Made by a program: the position numbers and the translations under genes | Assembly: GCF_000203915.1 (NCBI RefSeq) | Contig: NC_008390.1 | Coordinates: forward strand, 124,001-188,000 | Direction: 5' to 3' | Source of the DNA: Burkholderia ambifaria AMMD | GTDB taxonomy: Bacteria > Pseudomonadota > Gammaproteobacteria > Burkholderiales > Burkholderiaceae | DNA: 64,000 nucleotides | Part shown: positions 46,393 to 64,000 of the stretch, in pieces | Layout: every line of letters starts with the position of its first letter | How positions within the stretch are numbered: the stretch's first letter is position 1 | Notes under the pieces: model-generated | What the model saw: the letters and a program-made list of their open reading frames with translations, nothing else | What the model was told of the DNA's origin: nothing | Databases searched by the model: none

Positions 46393-47597
46393 GAAAGGGA
46401 GGGCTCGAGGTGCGGCGAAGCAGGACGGACGGCCGGTCGCGCGCCGCTGCGGTAGAAGTCGGATACCACCTGAAGGACACGGTCTTGCTCGGCGTCGCTC
46501 ATCGCGTGGTACAGCGGCAGGCGCACGAGCCGGTCGGCGACGTCGTCGGTCACCTGCATGCCGGAGCCGCAGCGGCCGTAGTGGCGGCCCGCCGGCGAAC
46601 TGTGCAGCGGCACGTAATGGAACACGGCGAACACGCCCGCGGCGCGGATCCGCTCGAGCAGCGCGGTGCGCTCGCCGAGGTCGCGCGCGAGGAAATAGAA
46701 CAGATGGCCGTTGCCAGCTTCGCTCAGCGGCGTCGCGGGCAGCGTGAGGTGGCCGGCGTCGTGCAGCGGCCGCAGCGCATCCTCGTAGCGCTTCACGGTC
46801 GCGCGCCGCTGCGCGGTGATCACGTCCGCGTGCTCGAACTGCGCGTACAGGAACGCGGCGATCAATTCGCCGGGAAGATAGGACGAACCGAGGTCGACCC
46901 ACGTGTACTTGTCGACCTGGCCGCGAAAGAACTGGCTGCGGTTGGTGCCTTTCTCGCGGATGATCTCCGCGCGCTCGACGAGCCGCGCGTCGTTGACGAG
47001 CAGCGCCCCGCCTTCGCCGGCGATCACGTTCTTGGTCTCGTGGAAGCTCAGGCACGCGAGGTGGCCGAGGCTGCCGAGCGGCTTGCCCTTCCAGGTCGAC
47101 TGGATCGCCTGCGCGGCGTCCTCGACGACCCACAGCCGGTAGTCGTCGGCGAGGTGCGCGATCGTGTCCATGTCGCACGACACGCCCGCATAGTGGACCG
47201 GGACGATCGCGCGTGTGCGCTCGGTGATCGCGGCGGCAACGAGTTTTTCGTCGAGATTCAGCGTATCGGCACGGATGTCGACGAACACGGGCGTCGCGCC
47301 GCGCAGCGCGAACGCATTGGCGGTCGACACGAACGTATAGGACGGCATGATGACTTCGTCGCCCGGGCCGACGTCGGTGAGGATCGCCGCCATCTCGAGC
47401 GCGGCCGTGCACGAGTGCGTGAGCAGCGCGCGATGGCACCCGATGCGCGTTTCCAGCCACTGGTGGCACAGCTTCGTGAATGCCTGGTCGCCGGCGAGTC
47501 CGCCCTGTTCGACCGCCTTCGCGATGTAGTAGAGCTCCTTGCCGACAATGAACGGACGGCCGAACGGAATGCGGTCGAGATTGGGAGGAGCGAACAT
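46389..47597 (-). CDS. WecE/RffA-like dTDP-4-amino-4,6-dideoxy-sugar aminotransferase
   Basis: A 402-residue PLP aminotransferase of the DegT/DnrJ/EryC1/StrS family, strongly similar in motif to E. coli WecE, which makes dTDP-4-amino-4,6-dideoxygalactose from the 4-keto sugar. It has PFGRPFIVGKELYYIAKAVE, GDEVIMPSYTFVSTANAFAL, VPVHYAGVSCDMDTIAHLAD and VVEDAAQAIQSTWKGKPLGS. The PLP lysine is K189 in SFHETKNVIAGEGGALLVND, and EKGTNRSQFFRGQVDKYTWV is nearly the WecE signature. No dTDP-glucose synthase or dehydratase (rmlA/B) lies in the window; these must come from elsewhere. Its product is probably N-acylated, but no acyltransferase is evident here. Confidence 0.9.
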   Translation of the reverse strand: MFAPPNLDRIPFGRPFIVGKELYYIAKAVEQGGLAGDQAFTKLCHQWLETRIGCHRALLTHSCTAALEMAAILTDVGPGDEVIMPSYTFVSTANAFALRGATPVFVDIRADTLNLDEKLVAAAITERTRAIVPVHYAGVSCDMDTIAHLADDYRLWVVEDAAQAIQSTWKGKPLGSLGHLACLSFHETKNVIAGEGGALLVNDARLVERAEIIREKGTNRSQFFRGQVDKYTWVDLGSSYLPGELIAAFLYAQFEHADVITAQRRATVKRYEDALRPLHDAGHLTLPATPLSEAGNGHLFYFLARDLGERTALLERIRAAGVFAVFHYVPLHSSPAGRHYGRCGSGMQVTDDVADRLVRLPLYHAMSDAEQDRVLQVVSDFYRSGARPAVRPASPHLEPSLS

Positions 47598-47658
47598 GAC
47601 GGAAACTCCGCGAAGGCGTGAAGAGGGGCAACGGGGCCGGCGGCTTGCGCGTGCGCGC

Positions 47659-48309
47659 TCAGCCATCCTTCCGGACGAGGATCGTGAATTCGTACAGCCC
47701 GTAGTCGTGCAGCAGCGCGACGTGGCGCGAGTAGCGGCGTTTGCAGCGATCGAACAGCGCGCACGGATCGGCGTAGTACAGCCGCTCGGGACGCATGTGC
47801 GGCGGATCGGAATACGACGTCAGGCAGTTGAACGCGAAGCCGAGACGGCTCGTCGCGTGCAGCGTGTCGAGCGTTGCGTGGATATAGTCGAGCCACGCGT
47901 CGTCGCCGTGGCCGCGATGCACGTTGAAGATGCCCGACGCGATGCCGTAGTCGGCGACCGACGACGGCGTGTCGCCGACGTGGAACGCGACGTCGGCGCG
48001 ATCGCGATAGCGCTGCCGGGCCGCATCGATCATCTCCGGCGACACGTCGTTGCCCGCATACGCATGGCTGCGCCCGGCCGCGTGCTCGTCGAGAAAATCC
48101 ACCAGCGCGCCGTAGCCGCATCCGAGGTCGTTGACCGAGAAGCCGTCGGCGGCGGGCGCGACGATCTTCGTCAGTTGTGCGAACCGCAGCCGCTGGCCGT
48201 CCTCGCCGTTCCAGTCCACGCCGCGTGCGGTCTGGCCGTGCTCGGCCAGGCGCGCGCCGTAATAGGCGGCGACGTCTGCCAGCAGGCCCGAGTGTCGGGA
48301 ATCGTGCAT
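47659..48309 (-). CDS. Class I SAM-dependent methyltransferase
   Basis: A 216-residue Rossmann methyltransferase. SAM motif I is SVNDLGCGYGALVDFLDEHA, motif II the acidic YAGNDVSPEMIDAARQRYRD, motif III around VAFHVGDTPSSVADYGIASG and FNVHRGHGDD. The C-terminal half has no clear substrate lid. The gene is 61 bp upstream of the aminotransferase gene and 10 bp after wbqC, in one transcript. Its substrate is probably the sugar or its acyl group, inferred only from position. Confidence 0.86.
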   Translation of the reverse strand: MHDSRHSGLLADVAAYYGARLAEHGQTARGVDWNGEDGQRLRFAQLTKIVAPAADGFSVNDLGCGYGALVDFLDEHAAGRSHAYAGNDVSPEMIDAARQRYRDRADVAFHVGDTPSSVADYGIASGIFNVHRGHGDDAWLDYIHATLDTLHATSRLGFAFNCLTSYSDPPHMRPERLYYADPCALFDRCKRRYSRHVALLHDYGLYEFTILVRKDG

Positions 48310-48319
48310 CGCGTAATCC

Positions 48320-49027
48320 TCAGTGTCGGCCGGTCACGACATGCCGGTGCGCATCCGGCCCGCAATGAAACAGCACGTCGAGCACCGTCACGCCGTGGAC
48401 GAACTCGCCCCACAGCTGCGCGTACGGCGGATAGGCCGGATAGTCGAACCAGCGCACCGCGACCTGCGCGGCGGCGAACCGGCTTTCGTCGAGATAGTCG
48501 CGTGCGGCGGGGCCGGACAGGTATTCGGTCGCGCCGGCCTGCAGGCACAGGTTCAGCAGCTTGTCGGTGCGATCGCCTTCCAGCGTGTAGTCGGACGACG
48601 ACGACATGCGCGTGGCGATGCCGAGCTGCCGGTTGACCCAGGTCAGCATCGCGAGATTCAGCGCGCTCAACGTGTCGTGCGGGCCGTGCAGGTAGAGCGC
48701 TTCGAGCTCCGGCGCGTAGCGCGCGAAATGCGGCGCGCGCGCGTAGTTCTGGCGCAGCCGCGTCCAGTGCTGTTCGGCCCACTCCGTGCCGTCGATCTCG
48801 GTTTCGCGAATGCTCTGGTGATAGCGCCCCTTCACCCGGACCGGCACGGTCAGCCACTGCACGCCTTGCGGCGTCTTGATCTGGTTGCGGTTGCGCCAGT
48901 CGCGCCGCGTGTACTGCGCGTCGTCGTACAGGATGAACTCGTCGGTCGCGGCGATCAGGTCGAAGTAGCCCTTCCACGGGATGTAGTTCGACTGGACGAT
49001 CGCGATGCGTTTCGGCTGCGCAGTCAT
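48320..49027 (-). CDS. WbqC family protein
   Basis: A 235-residue member of the WbqC family, found in many O-antigen and flagellar-glycan clusters. The N-terminus RIAIVQSNYIPWKGYFDLIA and IKTPQGVQWLTVPVRVKG are family signatures, as are AELEALYLHGPHDTLSALNL-like (APELEALYLHGPHDTLSALN) and the end SGPAARDYLDESRFAAAQVAV. The family may be N-acyl or aminoacyl-transfer-like, but function is not settled. It is 5 bp after the FAD oxidoreductase gene, so cotranscribed. In this cluster, a candidate for modifying the aminosugar made by the WecE-like enzyme. Confidence 0.85.
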   Translation of the reverse strand: MTAQPKRIAIVQSNYIPWKGYFDLIAATDEFILYDDAQYTRRDWRNRNQIKTPQGVQWLTVPVRVKGRYHQSIRETEIDGTEWAEQHWTRLRQNYARAPHFARYAPELEALYLHGPHDTLSALNLAMLTWVNRQLGIATRMSSSSDYTLEGDRTDKLLNLCLQAGATEYLSGPAARDYLDESRFAAAQVAVRWFDYPAYPPYAQLWGEFVHGVTVLDVLFHCGPDAHRHVVTGRH

Positions 49028-49032
49028 GTCGT

Positions 49033-50418
49033 TCAGACCGGAATGTGACCGTACCGGTACATGTCGACGAGCTCGGGCGGAATCCCCCAGTCGGTCGCGC
49101 CGAGCCGGTCGTGCAGCGCTTCGAGATCCGCGCGGATCGCGCGTTCGAGCTGCTCGACCATGCGGTTGCGCGCGGGCACGAAGTCGTGCTGGTACGCGGC
49201 GTTGATCTGGTGGCGGACCGTCTTCGCGATCGCCGCGTCGCGCGACAGGTTGCGGATCAGCGGCCGCTCCGGTGCCAGCTGCGCATAGCGCGGATCGATC
49301 GGCAGCCCGCGCATCGCGGCGACGAGGTCGCGGCACAGCACCGGCGACAGGTGGAAACCGTCGCGCTTGGTGCCGCCGAGAATCCACAGGTCGCGCACGC
49401 TGGTTTCGCCGATCAGCGGATACAGGTCGGACGTCGTCGGCCGCCAGCCGACGTTCACGTTGACGAGATTCGCACGCGAGAACCGCGAGTTGATCTGGTC
49501 CATCGCGGATTTGAGCAGCGTGTACGCGCTGCCGGCGTGCCCGTGCTCGTGCGGCACCGGGCTGATGTAGTTGCTGGCGCCGACGAGCGTGCGGTCCGGC
49601 CCGTACGGCGCCGAATAGACGCCGCACGCGAGGCCGCGGTTGGTCGTGCGCACGCAGTGCGTATGCACGTTCTCGTTGCTCTGCAGTTCGATCGACATGC
49701 CGATCCCGTAGAACAGCCGTTGCACCGGCAGCTCGGGCAGGCTCGCCTGCAGCACGCGCGTCAGGTTCGCGCCGTTGCAGAGCACGAACCGGTCGGCGTC
49801 GAGCGTCGTGCCGTCGCTCAGGCGGGCACCGGCGACGCGCCCGCCCGCGACGTCGATGCGTTCGACTTCGGCCGACACGAACGTGACGTTGCCGGCCGCG
49901 GCCACGCTGGCCTGGAGCGCATCGAGAAACTGTTTCGGGTTCGCCCAGCCTTCGCGCTTCAGATACACCGCGTTCAGCGCGCGGAACTGCGGCAGCGGCT
50001 GGTAGTTCGGGATGCCGGCCGGATCGACCGCCTCGCACGGTTCCTCGAACTCGCGGCAAAAGCGCCGCAGCGCCGCGAAATTCTCGTCGTCGAGCGCGTC
50101 GGTCGCCGCGTTGTTCAGCACGTAGGTGCCGAAGCCGTGCGCGACCGCGCGATCCGGCGTGCAGATCTCCGCAAATACGTCGGGCCACGCGGCAGTCGCC
50201 GCGCGGCTCAGTTCGAACTTGAAGCGGTCGATCGGCGTGCCGAGCGAATCGCCTTCCAGTTCGGTGAACGAGTTGAGCATCGCGGCGGCCGCGCGGGTCG
50301 CCGAGCCGGGGCGCTGCGCCGGGCCGACGACGACGAGCTCGATGCCCGGCTCCGCGCGTTGCCAGGCACGGGCCGTCATCAGCCCGAGGATGCCGTTGCC
50401 GAGGATCGCGATCTTCAT
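49033..50418 (-). CDS. FAD-dependent oxidoreductase of the D-amino-acid oxidase family
   Basis: A 461-residue flavoprotein of the DAO/glycine oxidase family. The N-terminal dinucleotide motif is IAILGNGILGLMTARAWQRA (GxGxxG). RLSDGTTLDADRFVLCNGAN is the second conserved FAD segment, VGWRPTTSDLYPLIGETSVRD and WILGGTKRDGFHLSPVLCRD the third, typical of DadA/ThiO-like folds. A C-terminal extension of about 80 residues is not assigned. It overlaps the TylF-like gene by ATGA at its start. In a sugar cluster it may oxidise an amino-acid-derived or amino-sugar donor; the substrate is unknown. Confidence 0.85.
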   Translation of the reverse strand: MKIAILGNGILGLMTARAWQRAEPGIELVVVGPAQRPGSATRAAAAMLNSFTELEGDSLGTPIDRFKFELSRAATAAWPDVFAEICTPDRAVAHGFGTYVLNNAATDALDDENFAALRRFCREFEEPCEAVDPAGIPNYQPLPQFRALNAVYLKREGWANPKQFLDALQASVAAAGNVTFVSAEVERIDVAGGRVAGARLSDGTTLDADRFVLCNGANLTRVLQASLPELPVQRLFYGIGMSIELQSNENVHTHCVRTTNRGLACGVYSAPYGPDRTLVGASNYISPVPHEHGHAGSAYTLLKSAMDQINSRFSRANLVNVNVGWRPTTSDLYPLIGETSVRDLWILGGTKRDGFHLSPVLCRDLVAAMRGLPIDPRYAQLAPERPLIRNLSRDAAIAKTVRHQINAAYQHDFVPARNRMVEQLERAIRADLEALHDRLGATDWGIPPELVDMYRYGHIPV

Positions 50419-51200
50419 GGGCGCACCCCGCCGCCTTCAGGGAAGCTCAGGTAGCAGAGCGACGGATACGACTTCGCCTTGTGGATCCGGTGCGGATGCT
50501 TGCCGAGCAGCTCGCGCACGTAGTGGATCCCTTCGGCCGGCGTCTGGCCGCCGCGCGTGAGTTGCCAGAACGCGACCACGCCGCCCGGCACGAGGCGCTT
50601 CATCACCGTCTCGAACGCCTGCCGGGTCGGGCCCGGCACGTTCAGGTCGAACCACGCGAGCGCGACCGGCTCGCCCGGATGCGCTTCCTCGTAGGCGGCC
50701 AGCGTGTCGCGGCAATCGCCTTCCCACACGTGGTGCTTGCCGTTCACGTGGCCCATCGCGTTGTTGCGCTCGTGCAGCGACAGCAGGTTGCGCAGCAGGT
50801 CCGCATAGTCGCCGGCGAGCGAGTACGTGCCGTCGGAGAACAGCTTGCGGTCGCGCGAATCGCCGTCGGAGAAGCCCGCGTAGCCGGTGAACGTATCGAA
50901 CGCGTGAATCCGGCGCTGGAAGTTCAGCGGCTCGAGGATCGCACGGAAGTTTTCGCACAGCACGGCGGTCTGGCCGCGCCAGGTGCCGAGATCGAGGATC
51001 GAACCCGGCAGCGGCACGATCTGCTCGTAGACCTCGAACGTCGCGAGGATCCGCGCGAGCAGCGAGCCGCGCACGAACAGGCCGAGCGAGCGTTCGAACT
51101 CCTCTTGCGTCGCCGGATAGGTCTGCATCAGGTCGAACAGTTCGCGTCGTGCGGCGAGCTGGTCGTCGTTCGAGTTGGAGATGATTGAGGACTCGTGCAT
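50415..51200 (-). CDS. TylF/MycF-like O-methyltransferase
   Basis: A 261-residue SAM methyltransferase of the TylF/macrocin O-methyltransferase type, which methylate sugar hydroxyls. SAM motif I is LPGSILDLGTWRGQTAVLCE, followed by RRIHAFDTFTGYAGFSDGDS, a TylF-style acidic loop with metal-binding residues, and ALAWFDLNVPGPTRQAFETV. This is the first gene of the minus-strand operon; the next gene starts inside its end (ATGA). Of two in-frame ATGs I chose 51200, because GGAG lies 8 bases ahead, too close to the ATG at 51206. A methylated sugar product is inferred. Confidence 0.85.
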   Translation of the reverse strand: MHESSIISNSNDDQLAARRELFDLMQTYPATQEEFERSLGLFVRGSLLARILATFEVYEQIVPLPGSILDLGTWRGQTAVLCENFRAILEPLNFQRRIHAFDTFTGYAGFSDGDSRDRKLFSDGTYSLAGDYADLLRNLLSLHERNNAMGHVNGKHHVWEGDCRDTLAAYEEAHPGEPVALAWFDLNVPGPTRQAFETVMKRLVPGGVVAFWQLTRGGQTPAEGIHYVRELLGKHPHRIHKAKSYPSLCYLSFPEGGGVRP

Positions 51201-51603
51201 ACACATGGCTCCAGGCGCTGAGGGTGGCTTCGGGGCATCCCTGGCCGCGGGCCGGCAAGCGGCTTGCGCCCTGCGCGATCGGCCGCGCGGTGGACGCCTC
51301 CAAGTCTGTGAACGAGTCTAGCGACCCGCGCGCCAATCAAATGCCGGATTAGCGGGCCGTTTTCCCCCGCATTTCGGGGAATGCCGGCACAGCCGGGGCC
51401 GGGCGCGTGCCGCGACCTTGATCGTCGTCAAGCCGCCGATCGCACCTTCAGATGAAAAGCGACCAAATCCGCCACCTGCTCCGCCGATTGGAACGGCGGG
51501 CCCGCGCCGAGAATGCTGGCATGTCGAGGGCCGTCCGCGCGTGTGCGATGCCGGCCTCCGCGCGGTTGCGCGCTCCGTACCGAACTCACGCTGGCTTACC
51601 ACG
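51201..51603. other. 403-bp divergent regulatory region of the sugar island
   Basis: It lies between the minus-strand sugar operon and the plus-strand GT41 operon and is AT-richer than its surroundings in two places (about 51325-51350 and 51440-51495). It must hold promoters for both directions. A sigma-28-like element is found on the plus strand (separate entry); for the minus strand I find no convincing box. No coding potential is seen. Confidence 0.55.
51464..51490 (+). promoter_or_regulatory. Candidate sigma-28 (FliA) promoter of the GT41 operon
   Basis: CAAA (51464-51467) and GCCGATTG (51483-51490) are exactly 15 bp apart, compared with the flagellar consensus TAAA-N15-GCCGATAA (3 of 4 and 6 of 8 matches, perfect spacing). 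Transcription would start near 51500, about 100 bp before the first GT41 ATG. It would tie the glycosyltransferases to late flagellar gene expression. Sequence-based only. Confidence 0.5.
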
Positions 51604-53400
51604 ATGACTGATCTCACGCTGTCCGACTCCCCCGTCGCCACGATCGAAGCGGCGCTGGCGCACCACCAGGCCGACCGGCTCGAGGAAGCCGAGACGCTGT
51701 ACCGCCGGATTCTCGACGCCGAGCCGCGGCACGCGGACGCGCTGCATCTGCTCGGCCTGATCGGTCACCAGTACGGGCGCTATCACGAGGCGACGGAACT
51801 GATCATGGCGGCGATCGAGATCAAGCCCGACGCGACCTATTACTACAACCTCGGCAACGTGATGCAGGCGAACAATCGGCCGGCCGCCGCCGCCGAGTGT
51901 TTCCGCCTCGCGATCGAGCTGCGGCCCGGCTACGTCGACGCGTACAACAACCTCGGCAACGCGCAGCGGCTCGCGGGCCACGCACGCGAGGCCGTCGACG
52001 CGTTCTGCCAGGCGATCGCGCTGCAGCCCGACCACGGGCAGGCATACAACAACCTCGGCAACGCGCTGCTCGACCTGAACGAGATCCCGGCCGCGCTCGA
52101 GGCGTACCAGCACGCGGTTGCGCTGCGTCCGGAGCTGCCGGAGCCGCGCAGCAACCTGCTGTTCGCGTACCACTACAGCGACGCGTTCGACCCGCACGCG
52201 TACCTCGACGAAGCCGCGCGCTTCGATGCGCTCGTCACGCAGCGCGCGCAGCCGTACTCGACGTGGCAGGTCGACCTGGGCGCGCGCATCGGGCGGCCGC
52301 TGCGCGTGGGCATCGTGTCGGGCGACCTGAAGGCGCACCCGGTCGGCTATTTCATCGAAGGGATGCTCGCGCACGTGAAGCGCGAGCGCATCGAACTGCA
52401 TGCGTATCCGACGCGCGAGATCGAGGACGACGTGACCGCGCGCATCAAGCCGCGCTTCGCGTCGTGGACGTGTATTGCCGGCCTCGACGACGCGGCGGCT
52501 GCCGCGCGCATTCACGACGACGGCATCGACGTGCTGATCGACGCATCCGGCCATACGATCCACAACCGCCTGCCGCTGTTCGCGTGGAAGCCCGCGCCGC
52601 TGCAGGTGAGCTGGCCCGGTTATTTCGCGAGCACCGGCATGCGCGCGATCGACTACGTGCTCGGCGATCGCCACGTGATGCCGGCCGACGAGGCCGCGCA
52701 TTTCGTCGAACGCGCGTGGCACCTGCCCGATAGCTACTTGTGCTTCACGCCGCCAGCTGTCGAGCTCGACGGCGGCCCGCTGCCGATGCTCGCGAACGGT
52801 TATCCGACCTTCGGCTATTTCGGCAAGCTCGCGAAGCTCACCGATCACGTGATCGACGTATGGTCGCGCGTGCTGCGCGACGTGCCGAACGCACGACTGT
52901 TCGTGAAGGCGCCGCATCTCGACGATCCGCGCGAGCAGGACGCGCTCGCGGCCCGCTTCGCCGCGCACGGCATCGATGCGGCGCGTCTGCTGTTCGAAGG
53001 CCGGTCGCCGCGCGACGAATATCTGGCCGCCTACCGGCGCGTCGACCTGATGCTGAGCCCGTTCCCGTACCCGGGCGGCACGACGACGGCCGAGGCGCTG
53101 TGGATGGGCGTGCCCGTGCTTGGCCGCCGCGGCGCGCGGTTCCTGTCGCACATCTGCGAAAGCCTGCTGCAGGCGGCGCGCCTGCCCGAATGGATCGCGG
53201 ACGACGACGACGCGTATGTCGCGAAGGCCGTCGCGTTCGCACGCAATCCGGCCGAGCTGGCCGTGCTGCGCACGACGCTGCGTGCGCAGGTGCTGGCGTC
53301 GCCGCTGTGCGATGCGCCCCGCTTCGCGCGTCATTTCGAGGAGGCGCTGCACGAAATGTGGGTGCGCCGCGTCGACGCCGCACCGGGAGCCGCAGCGTGA
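51604..53400 (+). CDS. TPR/GT41 (O-GlcNAc-transferase-like) glycosyltransferase 1
   Basis: A 598-residue protein with about five tetratricopeptide repeats (residues 5-205; [40 protein letters not shown]) and an OGT-type catalytic region from about 232. That region begins [20 protein letters not shown], with H245 in the HPVG motif at the place of the OGT active-site His, and has [38 protein letters not shown] and [20 protein letters not shown], the UDP-sugar site. Members O-glycosylate Ser/Thr of proteins; in bacteria some act on flagellin. First gene of a six-gene operon; GTGA overlap with the next. The target protein is inferred from the neighbouring flagellar cap genes. Confidence 0.88.
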
Positions 53401-54338
53401 ACGGCCAGTCCGTCCTCGTTACCGGCGGCGCGGGCTTTCTCGGCTCGCACCTCTGCGAGCGGCTCGTGCACGCCGGCTACGACGTGATGTGCGTCGACAA
53501 CTTCCACACCGGCAGCAAGCGCAACATCGAACACCTGATCGGCCAGGTCAATTTCGAGGTGATCCGCCACGACGTGTGGCTGCCGCTCTACGTCGAAGCG
53601 GACCGCGTGTTCAACATGGCGTGCCCGGCGAGCCCCGTGCACTACCAGAGCGACCCGGTGTCGACGGTGAAGACGGCCGTGCTCGGCGCGATCAACATGC
53701 TCGGCCTCGCGAAGCGCTGCGGCGCGCGCATCCTGCAGGCGTCGACGAGCGAGGTGTACGGCGACGCGCAGCAGCATCCGCAGCAGGAAAGCTACTGGGG
53801 CAACGTGAATCCGAACGGGCTGCGTGCGTGCTACGACGAAGGCAAGCGCTGCGCCGAGACGCTGTTCTTCGACTATCACCGTCAGCATGGCGTCGATATC
53901 CGCGTGGTGCGGATCTTCAATACCTACGGGCCGCGCATGCGCGCGGACGACGGGCGCGTCGTGTCGAACTTCATCATGCAGGCGCTGCGCGGCGAGCCGA
54001 TCACGCTGTACGGCGACGGCAGCCAGACGCGTTCGTTCTGCTACGTCGACGATCTCGTCGAAGGGCTGTTGCGGATGATGAACCAGGACGACGACACCGG
54101 CCCGATCAACCTCGGCAACCCGAGCGAGATCACGATCCGCGAGCTGGCCGAATGCGTGCTGCGGCTCACCGGTTCGAAAAGCCGCATCGAATATCGCCCG
54201 CTGCCGGCCGACGATCCGCTGCAGCGCCGTCCCGACATCGGCCGCGCGCGCCAGCGTCTGGACTGGCAGCCCGGCATCGCGCTCGAGGACGGCCTGAAGG
54301 AGACGATCGCCCATTTCCGCAAACAGGTGAATGCATGA
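53397..54338 (+). CDS. UDP-glucuronate decarboxylase-like NAD-dependent epimerase
   Basis: A 313-residue extended short-chain dehydrogenase closest in motif to UDP-xylose synthase. [15 protein letters not shown] (7-20) binds NAD. The catalytic set is S118 in [11 protein letters not shown]146 and K150 in ACYDEGKR, the UXS version of Yxxx[21 protein letters not shown] and [20 protein letters not shown] are also UXS hallmarks. It would convert UDP-glucuronate to UDP-xylose or an intermediate such as UDP-4-keto-xylose. The start is GTG at 53397, overlapping the previous stop (GTGA). The following C-methyltransferase-like gene suggests the product is further modified. Confidence 0.88.
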
Positions 54339-55540
54339 GCCCCGACCTGATCGACGCCCCTTGCCCCGTCTGCGCGCATACGGTTGCCGCGCCGTTCTTC
54401 CCGGGCGGCGAGCGCACGCTCGCGACGCTCGCGTGGCCCGCATCCGCCGAAGCGGCGCGCGGGCTGCCGCGTCATGCGCTCGACTTCGTCCAGTGCCCGC
54501 AGTGTTCGCACGTGTGGAACCACCGGTTCAGCTACGACGCGATTCCGTATCAGAGCAACCCGAACCGGATGTTCAACAGCGGCGGGATCTGGAAAGGCCA
54601 TCTCGCGGCCACGCGCGACCTGCTGCTCGGCACGCTGCCGACTGAACCGACGGTCGTCGAGATCGGCTGCGGAGAAGGCCATTTCGTGCGCGGCCTCGCG
54701 CAGGCGAGCCGCGGCGGGCGTTTCGCCGGCTTCGATCCGAACGCGAGCGCGGGCACCGGCAACGGCATCGAATTCCACGCGCGGCTGTTCGAACCATTGG
54801 CCGACATGCCCGCGTTCCGCCCCGACGCGATCGTGATCCGGCACGTGCTCGAACACCTGACCGAACCCGCGAAGCTCGTCGAGCAGCTCGCATGGGGCGC
54901 GTCGCGCCAGCCGAACGCGTGCTGGCTGTTCGCGGAAGTACCGTGCATCGATCGCGTGTTCGAGACCGACCGCCTCGCCGACTTCTTCTACGAGCACGTA
55001 TCGCAGTTCACGACGGAGTCGTTCCGCACGCTGATGGCGCGCGCCGGCGAGATCGTGACGCTCGCGCACGGCTACGACGGTGAAGTCGTCTATGCGCTGG
55101 TACGGCTCGGCGTGCCGGCGCACGCGCGCACGCGCGCCGACGCATCGCTGCGGTTCGCGGCGCGCTCGGTCGAGAACCGCGCGGCGATCGCCGGGCAGCT
55201 CACCGAGCTTGCCGGGTCGGGGCGGCGCGTCGCGATCTGGGGCGGCACCGGCAAGGCCGCCGCGTTCATCCATCACTTCGATGCCGATGCCGCGCGCTTC
55301 CCGCTCGTCGTCGATTCCGATCCCGACAAGGTCGGCACCTATGTGCCGGGCACCGGCCAGAAGATCGAATTCCGCGACGCGCTGAAGGCGGCGCCGGCCG
55401 ACGTGATCATCATTCCGACGCAATGGCGCGCACGCGACATCGTCGCCGAGATGTCGCGCGAAGGGATCGCGGCGGCGGCCGTGATGATCGAGCACGACGG
55501 CCGACTGATCGACTTCGGGCGCGAACCGCATCCGTATTGA
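54335..55540 (+). CDS. Sugar C-methyltransferase-like protein (Methyltransf_13/14 architecture)
   Basis: A 401-residue SAM methyltransferase with three parts. Residues 10-57 hold a zinc-finger-like CPVC (10-13) and CPQC (54-57). Residues about 105-230 form the SAM domain with [17 protein letters not shown] and [18 protein letters not shown]. Residues 265-401 form a second Rossmann-like lobe ([34 protein letters not shown]). This zinc-SAM-lobe order is that of nucleotide-sugar C-methyltransferases such as TylCIII and NovU, which build branched sugars. It overlaps the decarboxylase gene (ATGA). The pair could make a C-methylated pentose from UDP-glucuronate; this is inference. Confidence 0.85.
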
Positions 55541-55552
55541 GCGGCGCGCGCG

Positions 55553-58054
55553 ATGGAGCCGATTGAACTGCAATTGCGCGCGGCGCTCGCGCATCACGAG
55601 GCTGGACGTCTCGGGGAAGCGAAGGCGTTGTACGACGCGATCCTGCACGCGGAGCCCGGGCAGCCCGATGCGATGCACTTCCTCGGGCTGCTCGCGTGCC
55701 AGCTGAAGCAGTACGACGCGGGCCTTGCCCTGATGGAGCGCTCGCTAGCCGCGCGGCCGGACGCGTCATATTTCAACAACCTCGGCAACATGCTGCGCGA
55801 ATGCGGGCGGCTCGACGACGCGATCGCGCACTACCGTCGCGCGGTGGCGTTGCGTCCGGACTATCCGGAAGCGCACAACAACCTCGGCAACGCGCTGCGC
55901 GACGCGCGCGATCCGGCCGAGGCGATGCAGAGCTGTTCGCGCGCGATCGAATTGCGTCCCGGTTATGCGGAGGCATACAACAACCTCGGCAACGTGCTGC
56001 AGGACCTGGGCGAGCTGGATGCGGCCGCGGCGAGCTACGGCAAGGCGATCGCCTTCCATCCCGCGTATGCGGAAGCGCACAGCAACCTCGGCAACGTGCT
56101 GCGCACACAGGAGCGGCACGCGGACGCGATCGTTCATTACCGCCGCGCGATCGAATTGAGTCCTGCGCTGCCCGCCGCGTGTCACGGCCTCGGCCTGTCG
56201 CTGTGGGCGCTCGGCGAACTGAGCGAAGCCGTGAGCGTGCTGGGCGCCGCCGCGGCCGGGTCCGACGACGCGAGCCTGCACAACAACTACGCGGGCGTGC
56301 TGCGCGACGCGGGTGACCTCGACGCCGCCGCGGCGCACTACGCACGCGCGATCGCGCTCGATGCGTCGCTAGCCGCCGCGCATGCGAACTTGAGCGGCGT
56401 GCGCCGCCGTCAGGCGCGTTATGCGCAAGCGCTCGTGCATGCGCAGGAGGCGATCCGCATCGCACCGCATCTCGCCGATGCGCACAACCAGGCGGGCAAC
56501 GCTCACCACGGCCTGGGCGATCTCGTCGCGGCGCAAGCGTGCTACCGCACCGCGCTCGAGCTGAATCCGGCCGACAGCGGCACGTGCCACAACCTGTCCG
56601 TCGTGCTGCTCAAGCGCGAGCGGCACGCCGATGCGCTCGCGTATTGCCGGCAGGCGCTGGCGGGCGGCCGCCCGACCGTGTCGATGTACGTGAATCTTGG
56701 CGACATCCTGCGTGCGCAGGGCAACGTCGACGCCGCGGTGCCCGCGTATCGCGATGCGCTTGCGCTGGTGCGCGACGACGCGAGCGACGATGCGGCGGAG
56801 GTGCTCGGCCGCCTGCTGTTCGCCGCCGCGGCATCGGCGACCGTATCCCCCGCCGACTATCTGAATGACGCGCGCCGCTACGGCCGCCACCTCGCGGCGC
56901 GTTCGACGCGCTATACGCATGACGTGCGCGCACGCGCGGCCGACGCGCTGCACCGCCCGCTGCGGGTCGGCTTCGTATCGGGCGACTTGCGGCAGCACCC
57001 GGTCGGGATCTTCGTCGAAAGCGTGTTCGCGCATCTCGATCGCACGCGCGTTGCGCCATACGTGTACACGACGTCGGACGAAGCGGACGCGATCACCGCA
57101 CGGCTGAAGCCGCATGCGGCCGTCTGGCGTTCGATCGCCGGTTGCGATCCGCGAGCCGCCGCCCGCACGATTCACGACGACGGCATCGACGTGCTCGTCG
57201 ACCTCGCCGGCCATACGCAGGCGAGCGGCCTGGCCGCATTCGGCTGGAAGCCGGCGCCCGTGCAGGCGAGCTGGCTCGGCTTCTTCGCATCGACGGGCTG
57301 CGACGCGATCGACTATTTCATCGGCGACGCGCGGACGTTGCCGGCCGACGAGGCGCATCACTTCGTCGAGCAACCGTGGCATTTGCCGGACAGCTACCTG
57401 TGCTTCACGCCGCCGTCCGACGACGTCGCAGTCGGCCCGCTGCCGATGGCCGCGAACGGCCACGTCACGTTCGGCTGTTTCGGCAAGCTCGTGAAGCTCG
57501 GTGACGACGTCGTGCGCGTGTGGTCGCGCGTGCTGGATGCGCTGCCCGGTGCACGGCTGTTGCTGAAGGCGCGCGAGCTTGAACAGGCGGCGGTGCGCGA
57601 CGCGACCGCCGCGCGCTTCGCGCGGCACGGGATCGACGCGAGCCGGCTGCTGTTCGACGGCGCATCGCCGCGCGCGGAGTATTTCAACGCGTACAACCGG
57701 ATCGATGTCGCGCTGAGCCCGTTCCCGTACCCGGGCGGCACGACGACGGCCGAAGCGCTGTGGATGGGCGTGCCGGTGCTCGGGATGAAGGGCGGACGGT
57801 TCGTCACGCACATCTGCGAGAGCCTGCTGCACGCGGCCGGGATGCCCGACTGGATCGCCGGCGATGAGGACGACTATGTCGCGAAGGCGGTCGCCGCCGC
57901 GCAGGGCGGCGCGCGGCTGGCGGCGTTGCGCGCGACGCTGCGCGAACGCACGCTCGCGTCGCCGCTGTGCGATGCGGCACGCTTCGCACGCAATCTCGAA
58001 GATGCCTTCGCCGGCATGTGGACACGCTATACGGAAACGGCACAGACAGCATGA
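55553..58054 (+). CDS. TPR/GT41 glycosyltransferase 2
   Basis: An 833-residue OGT-like protein with about 12 TPR units (residues 5-425) and catalytic region from about 470 (LRVGFVSGDLRQHPVGIFVE, H482 in [43 protein letters not shown]). The TPR stretch 17-206 is nearly identical to the same stretch of the next protein, and the C-terminal part ([36 protein letters not shown]) also matches. Between about residues 210 and 430 the two differ, so their protein-binding surface differs. It starts 12 bp after the methyltransferase gene and overlaps the next gene by ATGA. Confidence 0.88.
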   Translation: MEPIELQLRAALAHHEAGRLGEAKALYDAILHAEPGQPDAMHFLGLLACQLKQYDAGLALMERSLAARPDASYFNNLGNMLRECGRLDDAIAHYRRAVALRPDYPEAHNNLGNALRDARDPAEAMQSCSRAIELRPGYAEAYNNLGNVLQDLGELDAAAASYGKAIAFHPAYAEAHSNLGNVLRTQERHADAIVHYRRAIELSPALPAACHGLGLSLWALGELSEAVSVLGAAAAGSDDASLHNNYAGVLRDAGDLDAAAAHYARAIALDASLAAAHANLSGVRRRQARYAQALVHAQEAIRIAPHLADAHNQAGNAHHGLGDLVAAQACYRTALELNPADSGTCHNLSVVLLKRERHADALAYCRQALAGGRPTVSMYVNLGDILRAQGNVDAAVPAYRDALALVRDDASDDAAEVLGRLLFAAAASATVSPADYLNDARRYGRHLAARSTRYTHDVRARAADALHRPLRVGFVSGDLRQHPVGIFVESVFAHLDRTRVAPYVYTTSDEADAITARLKPHAAVWRSIAGCDPRAAARTIHDDGIDVLVDLAGHTQASGLAAFGWKPAPVQASWLGFFASTGCDAIDYFIGDARTLPADEAHHFVEQPWHLPDSYLCFTPPSDDVAVGPLPMAANGHVTFGCFGKLVKLGDDVVRVWSRVLDALPGARLLLKARELEQAAVRDATAARFARHGIDASRLLFDGASPRAEYFNAYNRIDVALSPFPYPGGTTTAEALWMGVPVLGMKGGRFVTHICESLLHAAGMPDWIAGDEDDYVAKAVAAAQGGARLAALRATLRERTLASPLCDAARFARNLEDAFAGMWTRYTETAQTA

Positions 58055-58668
58055 ACGATATCCAGCAGGCCCTGCAGGAGGCCCTCACGCACCATCAGGC
58101 CGGACGTCTCGGGGAAGCAAAGACGCTGTACGACGCGATCCTGCACGCTCAGCCCGGGCAGCCGGACGCGATGCACTTCCTCGGGCTGCTCGCGTGCCAG
58201 CTGAAGCAGTACGACGCGGGCCTCGCGTTGATGGAGCGCTCGCTCGCCGAGCGACCGGACGCGTCGTATTTCAACAACCTCGGCAACATGCTGCGCGAAT
58301 GCGGGCGGCTCGACGACGCGATCGCGCACTATCGTCGCGCGGTGGCGTTGCGTCCCGACTATCCGGAAGCGCACAACAACCTCGGCAACGCGCTGCGCGA
58401 CGCGCGCGATCCGGCCGAGGCGATGCGGAGCTGTTCGCGCGCGATCGAACTGCGCCCCGGCTACGCGGAGGCATACAACAACCTCGGCAACGTGCTGCAG
58501 GACCTGGGCGAACTGGATGCGGCCGCGGCAAGCTACGGCAAGGCGATCGCCTTCCATCCCGCGTACGCGGAAGCGCACAGCAACCTCGGCAACGTGCTGC
58601 GCGCACAGGAGCGGCACGCGGACGCGATCGTCCACTACCGCCGCGCGATTGAACTGAACCCTGCGCTG
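55604..58668 (+). repeat. Near-identical 567-bp segments in two adjacent GT41 genes
   Basis: Bases 55604-56170 and 58102-58668 line up at a constant offset of 2498 bp with scattered, largely synonymous differences, whereas the DNA right after them diverges. They encode the same six or so TPR units. The sharp loss of identity suggests recent duplication or gene conversion limited to this part. Confidence 0.85.
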
Positions 58669-60537
58669 CGCGTCGCGCATCGCGGGCTCGCCATTGCGCT
58701 GCGGGCGACCGACGATTTCGACGGCGCGCTCGAGCATGCGCGCGCGGGGCTCGAACCGGACGATGCGGAAGGCCATTGCATGCTCGGGCGGTCGCTGCGC
58801 AGCATGAACGACTTCGACGGCGCGGCGCGCTTGTTCGAGCGCGCGTGCGAGATCGATCCCGGCTACGCGCCGGCATGGTGCCGGCTCGGCGAGCTGCGTT
58901 GCCAGCAGGGCGAATACGAGGAATCCCTGCGCCTGTGCCGGCACGCGATCGAACTCGATCCCGAACTCGCGGATGCGTACAACTTCCTCGGTCTCGCGTA
59001 TCACAACCTCGACCGGATGGCGGCGTCGGAGCTGAGCCATCGCCACGCGATCGACCTGAATCCGGACGACGCGGACGCGCACCACAATCTCGCGGCCGCG
59101 CTGTTCCGTCTCGACAAGCTCGACGAGGCGATGAGCGAATACCGGATCGCGCAGGAACTCGGCGTCGATCCGGTGAAGATTCAGCTGACGCTCGGCGACA
59201 TCCTGTGGGCCAAGCGCGATTTCTCCGGTGCGGTCGCGGCGTTCCGCGAAGCCGTCGAACACGATCCGCATCGCGCTTACGCGCGGCTGCTGTTCAACAT
59301 GTCGAGCTCGCCGGCGTTCGCGCCCGAGGAGTGGGTCGTCGATGCGCAGCGCTACGGCGACTACCTGGCGCGCGACGCGCGGCTGCTGTCGCATGACCGC
59401 GAACAGCGTGCGCGGCAGGCGCGCGGCCGGCCGTTGCGCGTCGGCTTCGTGTCCGGCGACCTGCGTCAGCATCCGGTCGGGATTTTCCTCGAAAGCGTGC
59501 TCGCGCATCTCGATCGCACGCGCATCGAGCCGCATGCATACGTGACCTTCGTGGTGGAAGACGACGTGACCGCGCGGCTGAAAACGGGCTTCGCGAGCTG
59601 GAAGAAGCTCACGTGCCTGAATCGCGACCAGGCCGCGCGGATGATCCACGACGACGGCATCGACGTGCTCGTCGATCTGGCCGGCCACACCAACTGGAGC
59701 GGGCTGCCCGTGTTCGCGCACCGGCCCGCGCCGGTGCAGGCGAGCTGGCTCGGCTTCTTCGCGACGACCGGCTGCCGCGCGATCGACTACTTCATCGGCG
59801 ACCCGCATACGCTGCCGGCCGACGAGGCGCATCACTTCGTCGAGCAACCGTGGCATTTGCCGGACAGCTACCTGTGCTTCACGCCGCCGGCTTACGACGT
59901 CGCGGTCGGCCCGCTGCCGATGGCCACGAACGGTGGCGTGACGTTCGGCTGCTTCGGCAAGCTCACGAAGATCAGCGACGACGTGATCGCGCTGTGGTCG
60001 CGCCTGCTGCACGCGCTGCCCGATGCGCGGCTGATGCTGAAGGCGCACGAGCTCGGCGCGAGCGACCTGAACCGCGCGACGCTCGAGCGTTTCGCGCGGC
60101 ACGGCATCGGCGCGCATCAGCTGATCCTCGAAGGCGGTTCGCCGCGCGCCGAGTATTTCAACGCGTACAACCGGATCGACATCGCGCTGAGCCCGTTCCC
60201 GTATCCGGGCGGCACGACGACGGCCGAAGCGCTGTGGATGGGCGTGCCGGTGATCGGGATGAAGGGCGGCCGCTTCGTCACGCATATCTGCGAAAGCCTG
60301 CTGCATGCGGCCGGGATGGGCGACTGGATCGCCGCCGACGAGGACGCGTATCTCGCGAAGGCGATCGCGTTCGCGGGCGATCGCGACGCGCTGGCGGCAT
60401 TGCGCGCGACGCTGCGCGAACGCACGCTCGCGTCGCCGCTGTGCGACGCGGCGCGTTTCGCACGCAATCTCGAGGATGCGTTCCACGGGATGTGGGCGCG
60501 CTACGTGGCCGGCGACACGGACGGCGCACGCACATGA
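58051..60537 (+). CDS. TPR/GT41 glycosyltransferase 3
   Basis: An 828-residue OGT-like protein. About 12 TPR units occupy residues 5-420; the first six duplicate those of GT41 protein 2, the later ones do not (RATDDFDGALEHARAGLEPD, GRSLRSMNDFDGAARLFERA). The catalytic region begins about 460 with LRVGFVSGDLRQHPVGIFLE (H474) and has LAGHTNWSGLPVFAHRPAP, WLGFFATTGCRAIDYFIGD and [20 protein letters not shown]. All OGT motif residues appear intact, so it should be active. ATGA overlap at both ends gives tight coupling with its neighbours. Confidence 0.88.
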   Translation: MNDIQQALQEALTHHQAGRLGEAKTLYDAILHAQPGQPDAMHFLGLLACQLKQYDAGLALMERSLAERPDASYFNNLGNMLRECGRLDDAIAHYRRAVALRPDYPEAHNNLGNALRDARDPAEAMRSCSRAIELRPGYAEAYNNLGNVLQDLGELDAAAASYGKAIAFHPAYAEAHSNLGNVLRAQERHADAIVHYRRAIELNPALRVAHRGLAIALRATDDFDGALEHARAGLEPDDAEGHCMLGRSLRSMNDFDGAARLFERACEIDPGYAPAWCRLGELRCQQGEYEESLRLCRHAIELDPELADAYNFLGLAYHNLDRMAASELSHRHAIDLNPDDADAHHNLAAALFRLDKLDEAMSEYRIAQELGVDPVKIQLTLGDILWAKRDFSGAVAAFREAVEHDPHRAYARLLFNMSSSPAFAPEEWVVDAQRYGDYLARDARLLSHDREQRARQARGRPLRVGFVSGDLRQHPVGIFLESVLAHLDRTRIEPHAYVTFVVEDDVTARLKTGFASWKKLTCLNRDQAARMIHDDGIDVLVDLAGHTNWSGLPVFAHRPAPVQASWLGFFATTGCRAIDYFIGDPHTLPADEAHHFVEQPWHLPDSYLCFTPPAYDVAVGPLPMATNGGVTFGCFGKLTKISDDVIALWSRLLHALPDARLMLKAHELGASDLNRATLERFARHGIGAHQLILEGGSPRAEYFNAYNRIDIALSPFPYPGGTTTAEALWMGVPVIGMKGGRFVTHICESLLHAAGMGDWIAADEDAYLAKAIAFAGDRDALAALRATLRERTLASPLCDAARFARNLEDAFHGMWARYVAGDTDGART

Positions 60538-62798
60538 CGGGCGCTGTCGTGGAACGGTTGAACGCGGCGTTCGTGCACCATCAGGCCGGGCGCTTCGACG
60601 ACGCTCGCATGCTGTACGAGGCGATCCGGCGCGACGAGCCGGATCAGCCGGATGCGACGCACTTCCTCGGGCTGCTCGCGTGCCAGCTCGGCCAGTTTCC
60701 GGCCGGCCTCGCGCTGATGGAGCGCGCGATCGCGCTGCGCGCCGATCCCGTCTACCTGAACAACTTCGGCAACATGCTGCGCGCGCACGGCCGGCTCGGC
60801 GATGCGATCGGCGCGTACCGGCGTGCGATCGCGCTCGCGCCCGACTATGCGGAAGCGCACAGCAACCTCGGCAACGCGTTGCGCGACGCGGGCGACGCGG
60901 ACGCCGCGATGCTGAGCTGCGCGCAGGCGCTCGCGCTGCGCCCCGATTACGCGCCGGCGTTCAACAACCTCGGTAACGCACTGCAGGACAAGGGCGAACT
61001 GGACGCCGCGGCGCGCGCGTACGAGAAGGCGATCGCACTCGATCCCGGCTACGCGCAGGCCCGCTTCAACCAGGGCAACGTATTGCGTGCGCAGCGCCGG
61101 CCCGACGAGGCGATCGCGTGCTACCGCGAAGCGATCGCGCTGCAACCGCACCTGCATGCCGCGCATCACGCGCTCGGCGTGCTGCTGTTCGAGCGCGATG
61201 ATCGCGAGGCCGCGATCGCGAGCCTCACCCGCGCGGCGGAATCGGGTGAAGCGGACTGCCTGTTCCACCTCGCGGCCGCGCTCGAGCGTGCAGGCGATCT
61301 CGACGGCACGGTGGCGAGCCTGCGGCGTGCGCTTGCCGCGGCGCCCGATCGTGCGGACCTGCATCACCACCTCGCGCAGACGTTGGTCCGGCAGGGCAAG
61401 CGGCGTGAAGCGCTCGACAGTTGCCGGATCGCGCTGTCGCTGCCGAACCCGACCGCGCAGATGCACGCAGTGATGGGCGACATCCTGTGCGCGATGTGGC
61501 ACCTCGATGCGGGGCTCGCGAGCTACGATCGTGCGCTCGAAATCGATCCCGCGTTCCGCAACGCACACTCGGGCCGCATGTTCCACGCGGCCGGCACCGA
61601 CCGGCTGTCGCCCATGCAACTCCTCGAACGCGCGCGCGAATTCGGCGCGCGGATGGCCGCGCAGGCGTCGCCGCGTACGCATGTGCCGCGGCCGGCCGCC
61701 GGGCGCGTGTTGCGTGTCGGGTTCGTGTCCGGAGACCTGAAGTCCCATCCGGTCGCGGTGTTCCTGCTGAGCGTCGTCGCGGCGCTCGATCCGTCGCGCA
61801 TCGCGGCGGTGGCCTACGCGACGCAGTCGGTGGAGGACGACACGACTGCGGCGCTCAAGCGCCATTTCGCGCTGTGGCGCGACATCACCGCGCTCGATGA
61901 TCGCGCGGCCGCCGACCTGATCGTGAATGACCACATCGACGTGCTGGTCGATCTGAGCGGCCATACCGCGTCGAACCGGCTGCCGTTGTTCGCATGGAAG
62001 CCGGCACCGGTGCAGGCGACCTGGCTCGGCTATTTCGCGACGACCGGCATCGCCGCGATCGACTACGTGATCGGCGATCGCCACGTGCTCCCCGACGACG
62101 AAGCGCATCACTTCGCCGAGCGGCCGTGGCGGCTGCCCGACAGTTACCTGTGCTTCACGCCGCCCGCACAGCCGCTCGACGTCGGGCCGCTGCCGGCCGA
62201 GCGCGAAGGTGTCGTCACGTTCGGATGCCTGAACAATGCGAACAAGATCGGCGACGCCGTCGTCGCGCTGTGGTCGCGCGTGCTGCATGCGGTACCCGGT
62301 TCGCGCCTGTTGCTGAAGTCGGCGCAGCTCGACGAAGCCGCGCTGCGCACGAGCCTCGCCGCGCGCTTCGCGGCACACGGTATTCCGGCAGAGCGCCTGC
62401 TGCTGCGCGGCGGATCGAAGCGGCTCGCGCACATCGCCACGTACAACGACATCGACATCGTGCTCGATCCGTTCCCGTATCCGGGCGGCACGACGAGCAT
62501 GGAAGGACTGTGGATGGGCGCGCCGTTCATCACGCGGCGCGGCGACCGCTTCCTGTCGCATATCGGCGAAAGCATCCTGCATACGCTCGGGATGCCTGAA
62601 TGGATCGCGGACAACGACGACGACTATGTCGCGAAGGCGGCCGCGTTCGCGCAGGATCTGCCGCATGTCGCGGCCGTGCGGGCCGGGCTGCGCGAGCGGC
62701 TGCTGCGCTCGCCGCTGTGCGATGCTCCGCGCTTCGCCCGCCATCTCGAAGCGGCGTTCGCGCAGATGGTCGACGCGGCGGCGGTGGCCGCGCGCTAG
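60534..62798 (+). CDS. TPR/GT41 glycosyltransferase 4
   Basis: A 754-residue OGT-like protein, last of the operon. About ten TPRs (residues 5-350) keep the same order as its neighbours but are more divergent ([40 protein letters not shown]). The catalytic region starts about 391: LRVGFVSGDLKSHPVAVFLL with H405 in HPVA rather than HPVG. Further on are [39 protein letters not shown] and GGSKRLAHIATYNDIDIVLD. The changes at the Gly after HPV and in the PGGTTSMEG motif suggest a different donor or acceptor. A hairpin terminator follows its stop. Confidence 0.87.
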   Translation: MTGAVVERLNAAFVHHQAGRFDDARMLYEAIRRDEPDQPDATHFLGLLACQLGQFPAGLALMERAIALRADPVYLNNFGNMLRAHGRLGDAIGAYRRAIALAPDYAEAHSNLGNALRDAGDADAAMLSCAQALALRPDYAPAFNNLGNALQDKGELDAAARAYEKAIALDPGYAQARFNQGNVLRAQRRPDEAIACYREAIALQPHLHAAHHALGVLLFERDDREAAIASLTRAAESGEADCLFHLAAALERAGDLDGTVASLRRALAAAPDRADLHHHLAQTLVRQGKRREALDSCRIALSLPNPTAQMHAVMGDILCAMWHLDAGLASYDRALEIDPAFRNAHSGRMFHAAGTDRLSPMQLLERAREFGARMAAQASPRTHVPRPAAGRVLRVGFVSGDLKSHPVAVFLLSVVAALDPSRIAAVAYATQSVEDDTTAALKRHFALWRDITALDDRAAADLIVNDHIDVLVDLSGHTASNRLPLFAWKPAPVQATWLGYFATTGIAAIDYVIGDRHVLPDDEAHHFAERPWRLPDSYLCFTPPAQPLDVGPLPAEREGVVTFGCLNNANKIGDAVVALWSRVLHAVPGSRLLLKSAQLDEAALRTSLAARFAAHGIPAERLLLRGGSKRLAHIATYNDIDIVLDPFPYPGGTTSMEGLWMGAPFITRRGDRFLSHIGESILHTLGMPEWIADNDDDYVAKAAAFAQDLPHVAAVRAGLRERLLRSPLCDAPRFARHLEAAFAQMVDAAAVAAR

Positions 62799-63275: not shown

Positions 63276-64000
63276 TTACTTGTTGGTGGCGAGCGCGCCG
63301 GCGCTGTTCGTGCCGCCGAACAGCTGCGTCAGATACTTCGTGTTGTTCGCCATCGTCGCCATCAGGTTGTTCAGCGCGGTGAACTGCGCGTTGTACTGCG
63401 CGGTCAGCTGATCCGAATAGTTCTTCAGCTGCGTCGCCTGGTTGGACAGGTTCTTCAGGTCCGCATTGAGCGCCGTGGTGCGCTGGTCGATCAGGCCGTT
63501 CGCCTGCGTGTACGTGTTGACCAGCTTGTTCAGCGTCTGGCCGACGCCGTTCGTCGTGTTGAACAGCGCGGCGACGGTCGGGCTGTTCGACGTGAGCGCG
63601 GTGTTCAGCGCGGTCGAGTCGACCTGCAGCGTCCCGTCGGCCTGCAGGTTGATGCCGATCGCCGCGAGCGAATAGGTCGTGCTCGGGCTGCCCGTCTTGA
63701 CGCCGCCGCTGATCGCGGTCGCGAGGCCGCTCGAGATCGTGTTGAGCATCGCGTCGCCGAGCAACGGACCTGCCGTCGACGTGTTCGGATCGTACGACGA
63801 CAGCGACTTCGCGGTCGTCACGTAGCCGTTGTATGCGTTGACGAATGCGTTGATCGCGCTCGTCGTGGCCGTCGTGTCCTGCGACAGCGTGACCGTCTGG
63901 GTCGTGTTCAGCGCGGCCGGCGTCAGGTTCAGCGTGACGCCCGTCAGCACGCCCGACACGCTGTTGGACGCGCTGCTCACCGGCGTGCCGTCGACGGTCA
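63276..64000 (-). CDS. fliD: Flagellar hook-associated protein 2 (filament cap FliD), C-terminal part
   Basis: The last 241 residues of FliD; the frame is open to the window edge and the N-terminus lies outside. SGVLTGVTLNLTPAALNTTQ followed by INAFVNAYNGYVTTAKSLSS is the start of the FliD_C domain. LTSNSPTVAALFNTTNGVGQ and DLKNLSNQATQLKNYSDQLT then form the C-terminal helices that coil into the filament cap, ending KYLTQLFGGTNSAGALATNK. FliD caps the growing flagellum and aids flagellin folding. Its presence places the neighbouring sugar island in a flagellar context. Confidence 0.95.
   Translation of the reverse strand, partial: TVDGTPVSSASNSVSGVLTGVTLNLTPAALNTTQTVTLSQDTTATTSAINAFVNAYNGYVTTAKSLSSYDPNTSTAGPLLGDAMLNTISSGLATAISGGVKTGSPSTTYSLAAIGINLQADGTLQVDSTALNTALTSNSPTVAALFNTTNGVGQTLNKLVNTYTQANGLIDQRTTALNADLKNLSNQATQLKNYSDQLTAQYNAQFTALNNLMATMANNTKYLTQLFGGTNSAGALATNK

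Follow-up and report, generated by a model that had tools for sequence, protein, structure and literature searches.

The four glycosyltransferase genes of an operon in Burkholderia ambifaria AMMD, named GT1 to GT4 in operon order, probably form a cassette that O-glycosylates flagellin specifically and draws on two or more classes of sugar donor; we infer both the flagellin target and the sugars. The operon occupies positions 51604 to 62798 of the stretch of DNA that was analysed, hereafter the window (64,000 nucleotides; NCBI RefSeq assembly GCF_000203915.1, contig NC_008390.1, positions 124,001 to 188,000, forward strand), and lies beside the flagellar genes fliT, fliD and fliC. Each of the four enzymes combines N-terminal tetratricopeptide repeats (TPR) with a catalytic domain of family GT41. 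Flagellin as the target is supported indirectly, as the array has stayed with one flagellin type across many exchanges between species.

The number of GT41 genes was compared across 65 Burkholderia genomes, the window's included, where two matching segments were taken as one gene. GT41 genes are present in 57 of the 65 genomes, with four genes in 13 and three in 11. An earlier note on this DNA had presented four copies as something out of the ordinary; an oddity of a single genome is ruled out by this count. The comparison across relatives, which it had proposed as a check, showed that the GT41 count varies in step with the flagellin type. All 24 genomes with a FliC of 272-274 residues, 80-100% identical to the window's protein (274 residues; fliC at 64894 to 65715 in the window frame, contig 188894-189715, just past the window), carry three or four GT41 genes, with eight segments in 13 genomes and six in 11 (seven in G017; in G045 the fourth gene lies on a separate contig). 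The 39 genomes with a long FliC (384-529 residues where measured) carry zero to two. Counted at the locus itself in 64 genomes (G050, whose FliC was not extracted, being left out), a FliC of 272-283 residues goes with four GT41 genes in 12 genomes, three in 12 (G045 taken as three) and one in two, a FliC of 384-389 residues with one in 22 and none in five, a FliC of 472-474 residues with one in three, and a FliC of 495-529 residues with none in eight, among them G057 with just 0.7 kb of contig past fliT; in G001 and G057 a GT41 gene is present on another contig. Since the species are not independent, the p-value of this table was not used. TPR proteins of long-type loci (mostly 646-742 residues) that resemble the glycosyltransferases by BLAST were excluded because they have no GT41 catalytic domain; of 191 hits, 19 were of this kind, including one in L232. 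At L114, L115, L116 and other long-type loci, such a protein of about 646-659 residues is encoded in the opposite direction to the flagellar genes.

The short FliC can be aligned over its full length with flagellins of known structure (271-286 residues) and is read as a D0/D1 core without outer domains. Outer domains are absent from some flagellins elsewhere and present in 66 of 67 sampled beta- and gammaproteobacterial ones (PMC12445082). As a check independent of the glycosyltransferases, 200 genomes of the family were searched with FliC, and all 21 outside the genus with a FliC at least 72% identical were examined; each of the 21 has two to four GT41 genes convergent with fliT. The same convergent layout occurs in the further genera g13, g20 and g25 at 72-79% FliC identity. 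Two genomes, G134 and G218, have four short fliC copies each, and around a second copy of G134 (L223) no fliD, fliT or array was found in the stretch examined.

With short and long FliC as labels, the rpoB tree of 64 genomes (G053, which had no rpoB match, being left out) comprises 17 changes; supported branches force 8 of these in the careful tree and 11 in the quick one. With shuffled labels the mean was 20 changes, and 17 or fewer were reached in 44 shuffles of 500, so the flagellin label depends little on the species tree. Among 8 independent pairs of unlike flagellin type, the array changed along with the flagellin in 6.9 (mean) and against it in no pair (median p 0.0156). The rpoB tree excludes common vertical inheritance as the only reason for the link between flagellin and array.

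Five sister pairs with rpoB 97.7-99.5% identical differ in the whole allele. In four of the five, an identity of about 90-98% stops 240-280 bp upstream of fliC, while the border is softer in G012/G023. The genomes G056 and G055 share 99.5% of rpoB; their alignable fliC-fliD stretches are 67-82% identical, the array is absent in G055, and no far border was found within 55 kb. Compared with the window, the long-flagellin genomes G055, G007 and G023 resume similarity at about 41.09 kb, and G006 and G046 show no resumption in the stretch compared. Among 20 genomes with the allele, FliC identity tracks GT1-3 and FliD identity (r 0.77-0.89), and rpoB is weakly correlated with the five proteins (r 0.15-0.31, p < 0.05 for four of them). 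Altogether, borders and covariation indicate that fliC-fliD-fliT and the array behave as one allele of about 25 kb that is passed between species. In the window frame it extends from about 41.09 to about 65.98 kb (41090 to 64000 inside the window, with the high-coordinate border past it).

The operon comprises six intact reading frames on the forward strand: GT1 at its head (598 residues, 51604 to 53400), a UXS-like UDP-glucuronate decarboxylase (UXS; 313 residues, GTG start, 53397 to 54338), a sugar C-methyltransferase (CMT; 401 residues, 54335 to 55540), GT2 (833 residues, 55553 to 58054), GT3 (828 residues, 58051 to 60537) and GT4 (754 residues, 60534 to 62798). Every junction is a 4-bp overlap except that of CMT and GT2, a 12-bp gap. 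The operon is convergent with fliT (98 residues, PF05400, 62944 to 63240, reverse strand), fliD (475 residues in full, its 3' part at 63276 to 64000, reverse strand, with the frame ending at 63276) and fliC. The earlier note was accurate in giving these four lengths, the decarboxylase and C-methyltransferase, the tight packing and the adjacency to fliT-fliD, as well as in describing intact catalytic motifs with a variant in the fourth enzyme (SGDxxxHPVG exact in GT1-3, SGDLKSHPVA in GT4). No GT41 gene was found outside the operon in the 7.53-Mb genome, where eight segment matches, two per gene, all fall into GT1-GT4.

In catalytic-domain trees (172 rows, and 104 rows in a second tree) GT1, GT2, GT3 and GT4 each form a clade of their own (21, 22, 22 and 13 members from Burkholderia), and the GT4 clade also holds three Paraburkholderia-type relatives. 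The three glycosyltransferases of G011, like the three of G060, belong to none of these clades, and the GT41 enzymes of long-flagellin loci form a distant one. The nearest named relatives of GT2 are from Burkholderia sp. Bp9142, sp. Nafp2/4-1b and B. latens. Recent tandem duplication is excluded by these trees, according to which the four enzymes are distinct ortholog lineages rather than copies.

All four enzymes match the Pfam family Glyco_transf_41 (PF13844) with 130-152 bits at a cut-off of 25 and contain the motif PFPYPGGTT. GT1 and GT4 were compared with solved GT41 enzymes and gave E-values of 3e-97 and 1e-109, which exclude chance; the nearest solved relative of both is the protein O-fucosyltransferase SPINDLY, with O-GlcNAc transferase (OGT) behind. 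A pocket signature was taken from SPINDLY positions 495, 496, 661, 662, 665, 728, 744, 748 and 749. It reads HPGKKYYTT in GT1-3 of the window and HPNNKHYTT in GT4, which gives two nucleotide-pocket classes: the SPINDLY residues Asn661, Lys665, His728, Tyr744 and Thr748 are all present in GT4, whereas GT1-3 show Gly at 661 and Tyr at 728. His at 728 was found in all 16 rows of the GT4 clade and elsewhere only in genome G015 and SPINDLY. The equivalent of Lys665, which is essential in SPINDLY (PMC9715652), occurs in all four enzymes and in every signature listed.

The equivalent of Tyr744 is likewise present in all four. It stands at the position of Cys917 of human OGT, where a small residue would leave room for N-acetylglucosamine (GlcNAc), and a Tyr there clashes with GlcNAc; UDP-GlcNAc is possibly unsuited to the bacterial GT41 enzymes with solved structures (both PMC9715652). 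GlcNAc is thus probably not the donor of GT1-GT4, and together with the pocket classes the Tyr predicts donors that are small, lack a 2-N-acetyl group and belong to two nucleotide classes. The label 'OGT-like' of the earlier note should therefore be read as membership of GT41 and not as O-GlcNAc transferase, since the active-site Tyr opposes GlcNAc and SPINDLY is nearest to GT1 and GT4. At positions 662, 728 and 744 of the pocket, the GT41 enzyme of G015 shows Gln, His and Cys, the residues of human OGT, and from this signature it may be of true O-GlcNAc transferase type. The Cys at the 744 equivalent of OGT is described in PMC9715652.

The fourth enzyme varies together with the two sugar genes. 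UXS matches human UXS1, a UDP-glucuronate decarboxylase, with 413 bits (142 bits for the runner-up family), and CMT shows a weak match of 45 bits to sugar C-3-methyltransferases, with a weak likeness to TcaB9. Both genes are present at all 18 loci that have four GT41 genes and could be assessed (12 of Burkholderia, the window included, and six of Paraburkholderia type; G045 was left out because of a contig end) and at none of 31 loci with two or three, where absence refers to the locus and for 29 of the 31 was also seen by tblastn. Seven of nine three-gene Burkholderia loci of the GT1-GT2-GT3 type retain a C-terminal CMT remnant between GT1 and GT2, so that these loci seem to descend from a CMT-bearing form. 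A scar of GT4 is weak (95-96 bp at 70-72% in three of the nine) and was not relied on. Since UXS+CMT and GT4 stand apart in the operon, the fact that they are missing together points to a functional link, unless the loci were acquired whole. The earlier note had taken four different copies as a sign of several glycans, several target sites or sequential sugars. The distinctness of the enzymes has held up, by four clades, two pocket classes and the tie of the fourth enzyme to sugar genes, and on this basis several sugars or steps fit better than redundancy. That the four are tandem copies of one activity kept for dosage is very improbable: GT2 and GT3 do have near-identical TPR halves and catalytic domains that are 75% identical, but each of the four clades holds its position in the array (in 21, 22, 22 and 13 genomes of Burkholderia), the two pocket classes have different residues, and the fourth enzyme is present or absent together with UXS+CMT.

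The similarity of GT2 and GT3 is confined to part of the proteins. In the window, residues 41-205, the N-terminal TPR half (codons at 55673 to 56167 of GT2, forward strand), are identical at 161 of 165 positions (98%; DNA 95.2%), and of 157 sites where a silent change is possible, 138 use an identical codon; beyond residue 205 the identity is 34% in the next part of the TPR region and 75% in the catalytic part. For the GT2 orthologs of seven other genomes, codon sharing in 41-205 amounts to 72-83%. In the group of G009, which comprises five four-gene genomes, GT2 and GT3 are 91-96% alike over residues 1-205, while GT2 differs by 17-22% from that of the window. The TPR-half identity is 85-96% in the 13 four-gene genomes and 78-80% in nine three-gene genomes. 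These values suggest that in the 13 four-gene genomes one TPR half has evolved in concert through gene conversion, while the sequence behind it diverged. With a shared N-terminal half, GT2 and GT3 probably read the same flagellin address and differ in the rest. At the three-gene loci L096-L104, GT2 has 732 residues and is thus about 100 residues and about three TPR repeats shorter.

On the side of the presumed substrate, FliC positions 52, 211 and 219 hold Ser or Thr in 95% or more of the 43 flagellins linked to an array; among the 44 others the share is 10% or less. Position 211 is Thr in 43 of 43 array-linked proteins and Arg in 44 of 44 without array, the short ones of genus g10 included; the comparison left out G008 and G015, which have neither residue there. 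Because 12 columns separate both sets and three of them are Thr, the three positions are candidates only.

From these data the following mechanism can be proposed. The allele of about 25 kb would unite a D0/D1-core flagellin, its cap FliD and FliT with a convergent TPR-GT41 array and nucleotide-sugar genes. The TPR superhelix would dock the short FliC in the cytoplasm, before export, and the GT41 domain would add a sugar to Ser or Thr of FliC. GT1-3 would share one donor class, plausibly dTDP-linked and from a WecE-type branch, whereas GT4 would take another donor, plausibly the UXS/CMT product, for a further site or an added sugar.

It is rather unlikely that the enzymes instead build one chain, with GT1 adding the first sugar and GT2-GT4 extending the glycan while their TPRs recognise glycosylated flagellin. 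Separate ortholog lineages and a fourth enzyme with its own donor genes, which resembles an added step, would suit such a chain, as would the fixed gene order, with a GT1-like enzyme (by best match) in first place in Burkholderia and most three-gene arrays of other genera; at the Paraburkholderia-type four-gene loci this enzyme is second. However, the common TPR half of GT2 and GT3 suits the same protein address, and the known GT41 enzymes act on protein side chains. ApHMW1C additionally makes Glc-Glc links (PMC9715652).

It is improbable that the target is a different protein, of the cell surface or the cytoplasm, and that the array is inherited with fliC only as its neighbour. One exchanged block does hold both, so that linkage alone could keep them together; yet the convergent layout is kept in g13, g20 and g25 at 72-79% FliC identity, position 211 separates Thr with array from Arg without it in every case compared, and a Caulobacter TPR enzyme of like layout binds flagellin (PMC7591256).

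Several observations weigh against a flagellin-specific cassette. Physical linkage by itself could maintain the co-inheritance, and in the table of a review, two Burkholderia species are each given a single glycosylation site on their flagellin (PMC3958885). The genomes G008 and G015 (L105, L106) have a different short FliC (59-62% identical) and one unrelated GT41 gene each. In genus g10, with a short FliC 68-69% identical, none of six genomes has a GT41 gene near fliT (9-18 kb of flank), with GT41 matches elsewhere in the genomes of G140, G235 and G240, and genus g24 (short FliC, 40-44% identical) is not among the 109 of 200 family genomes with a GT41 match, a search read as presence and not as gene counts. 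The statement that a short flagellin always has the array consequently fails outside the clade of about 72% identity. Three of the six Paraburkholderia-type loci (L024, L027, L028) combine UXS+CMT with a fourth enzyme of another clade, which weakens an equation of the GT4 clade with UXS+CMT and leaves the claim that a fourth GT41 accompanies these genes. Finally, no flagellar sigma-28-like (FliA-type) promoter above background was found before GT1, where the best score was 10 and scores of at least 10 also occur in 76 of 127 stretches of 500 bp in the window.

Only tentatively can it be suggested that flagellar loci of Burkholderia trade the outer domains of FliC for GT41 enzymes, with a glycan coat in place of D2/D3 and a gene-converted TPR 'address' module that directs two catalytic domains to one epitope. 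The locus count of three or four (one in two cases) at 272-283 residues and of one in 25 of 30 genomes at 384-474 residues means that a longer FliC goes with fewer GT41 genes, and a coat would replace the missing domains.

Leftward from GT1, and all on the reverse strand, follow a TylF/Methyltransf_24-type methyltransferase divergent from GT1 (50415 to 51206), an FAD-dependent oxidoreductase of the DAO family (49033 to 50418), a WbqC-family protein (48320 to 49036), a methyltransferase (47659 to 48309), a WecE-type dTDP-4-amino-4,6-dideoxygalactose transaminase (46389 to 47666; 613 bits, cut-off 375) and a 936-residue protein with glycosyltransferase-like domains (PF13524, PF13439; 43606 to 46416). 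A 558-residue protein without Pfam match (41902-43578) lies at the margin of the exchanged block, and DNA 73-79% identical to it is present in five long alleles and in the short allele of G009. At locus L081, a perfect TAAAGTTT box with a weak -10 was seen upstream of fliC.

Acceptor and donor choice by GT41 enzymes is poorly understood, and the locus offers a natural experiment, in which four paralogs of two pocket classes presumably share one substrate and the donor genes vary with the fourth enzyme. In sister species that are unlike in the whole allele, filament surface, phage sensitivity and motility could be compared directly. A published description of the array or of its link to flagellin type was not found, where most of the subscription literature, including Scott 2011 and Hanuszkiewicz 2014, was outside the scope; the accessible parts of PMC5773237, PMC12645811, PMC3443583 and PMC5987112 do not mention the array.

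Among known systems, the long-flagellin Burkholderia locus is similar in its GT41 gene by fliC-fliD-fliT, its DegT aminotransferase and its chromosomal place, but has one co-directional glycosyltransferase of a distant clade and a long FliC. Its single fliT-side GT41 is presumably the B. cenocepacia-type flagellin glycosylation system of Hanuszkiewicz 2014. No UXS or CMT matches were listed for these single-gene loci, and in L149 (G058) the single GT41 and DegT genes lie about 90 kb from fliC, apparently moved from their usual place. In Pseudomonas aeruginosa, a- and b-type flagellin with a type-specific glycosylation island likewise tie the flagellin type to its own glycosylation genes, with other glycosyltransferase families and two flagellin types within one species. 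As in such a flagellin-type-linked island, the glycosylation genes of the window lie by fliC and are allelic with the flagellin type.

Caulobacter FlmG (596 residues) also combines TPR with a C-terminal glycosyltransferase, and its TPR part binds flagellin in two-hybrid assays, but one enzyme serves six flagellins with pseudaminic acid as donor (PMC7591256). The flagellin islands of Enterobacteriaceae contain GT41 (SPINDLY-domain) enzymes as well, with one to three glycosyltransferases each, and most of these GT41 enzymes have methyltransferase domains (PMC4875605). Arabidopsis SPINDLY, which among solved enzymes matches GT1 and GT4 best, shares Lys665 and Tyr744 with all four enzymes, but is a plant enzyme that uses GDP-fucose (PMC9715652), and equivalents of its Asn661 and His728 are missing in GT1-3.

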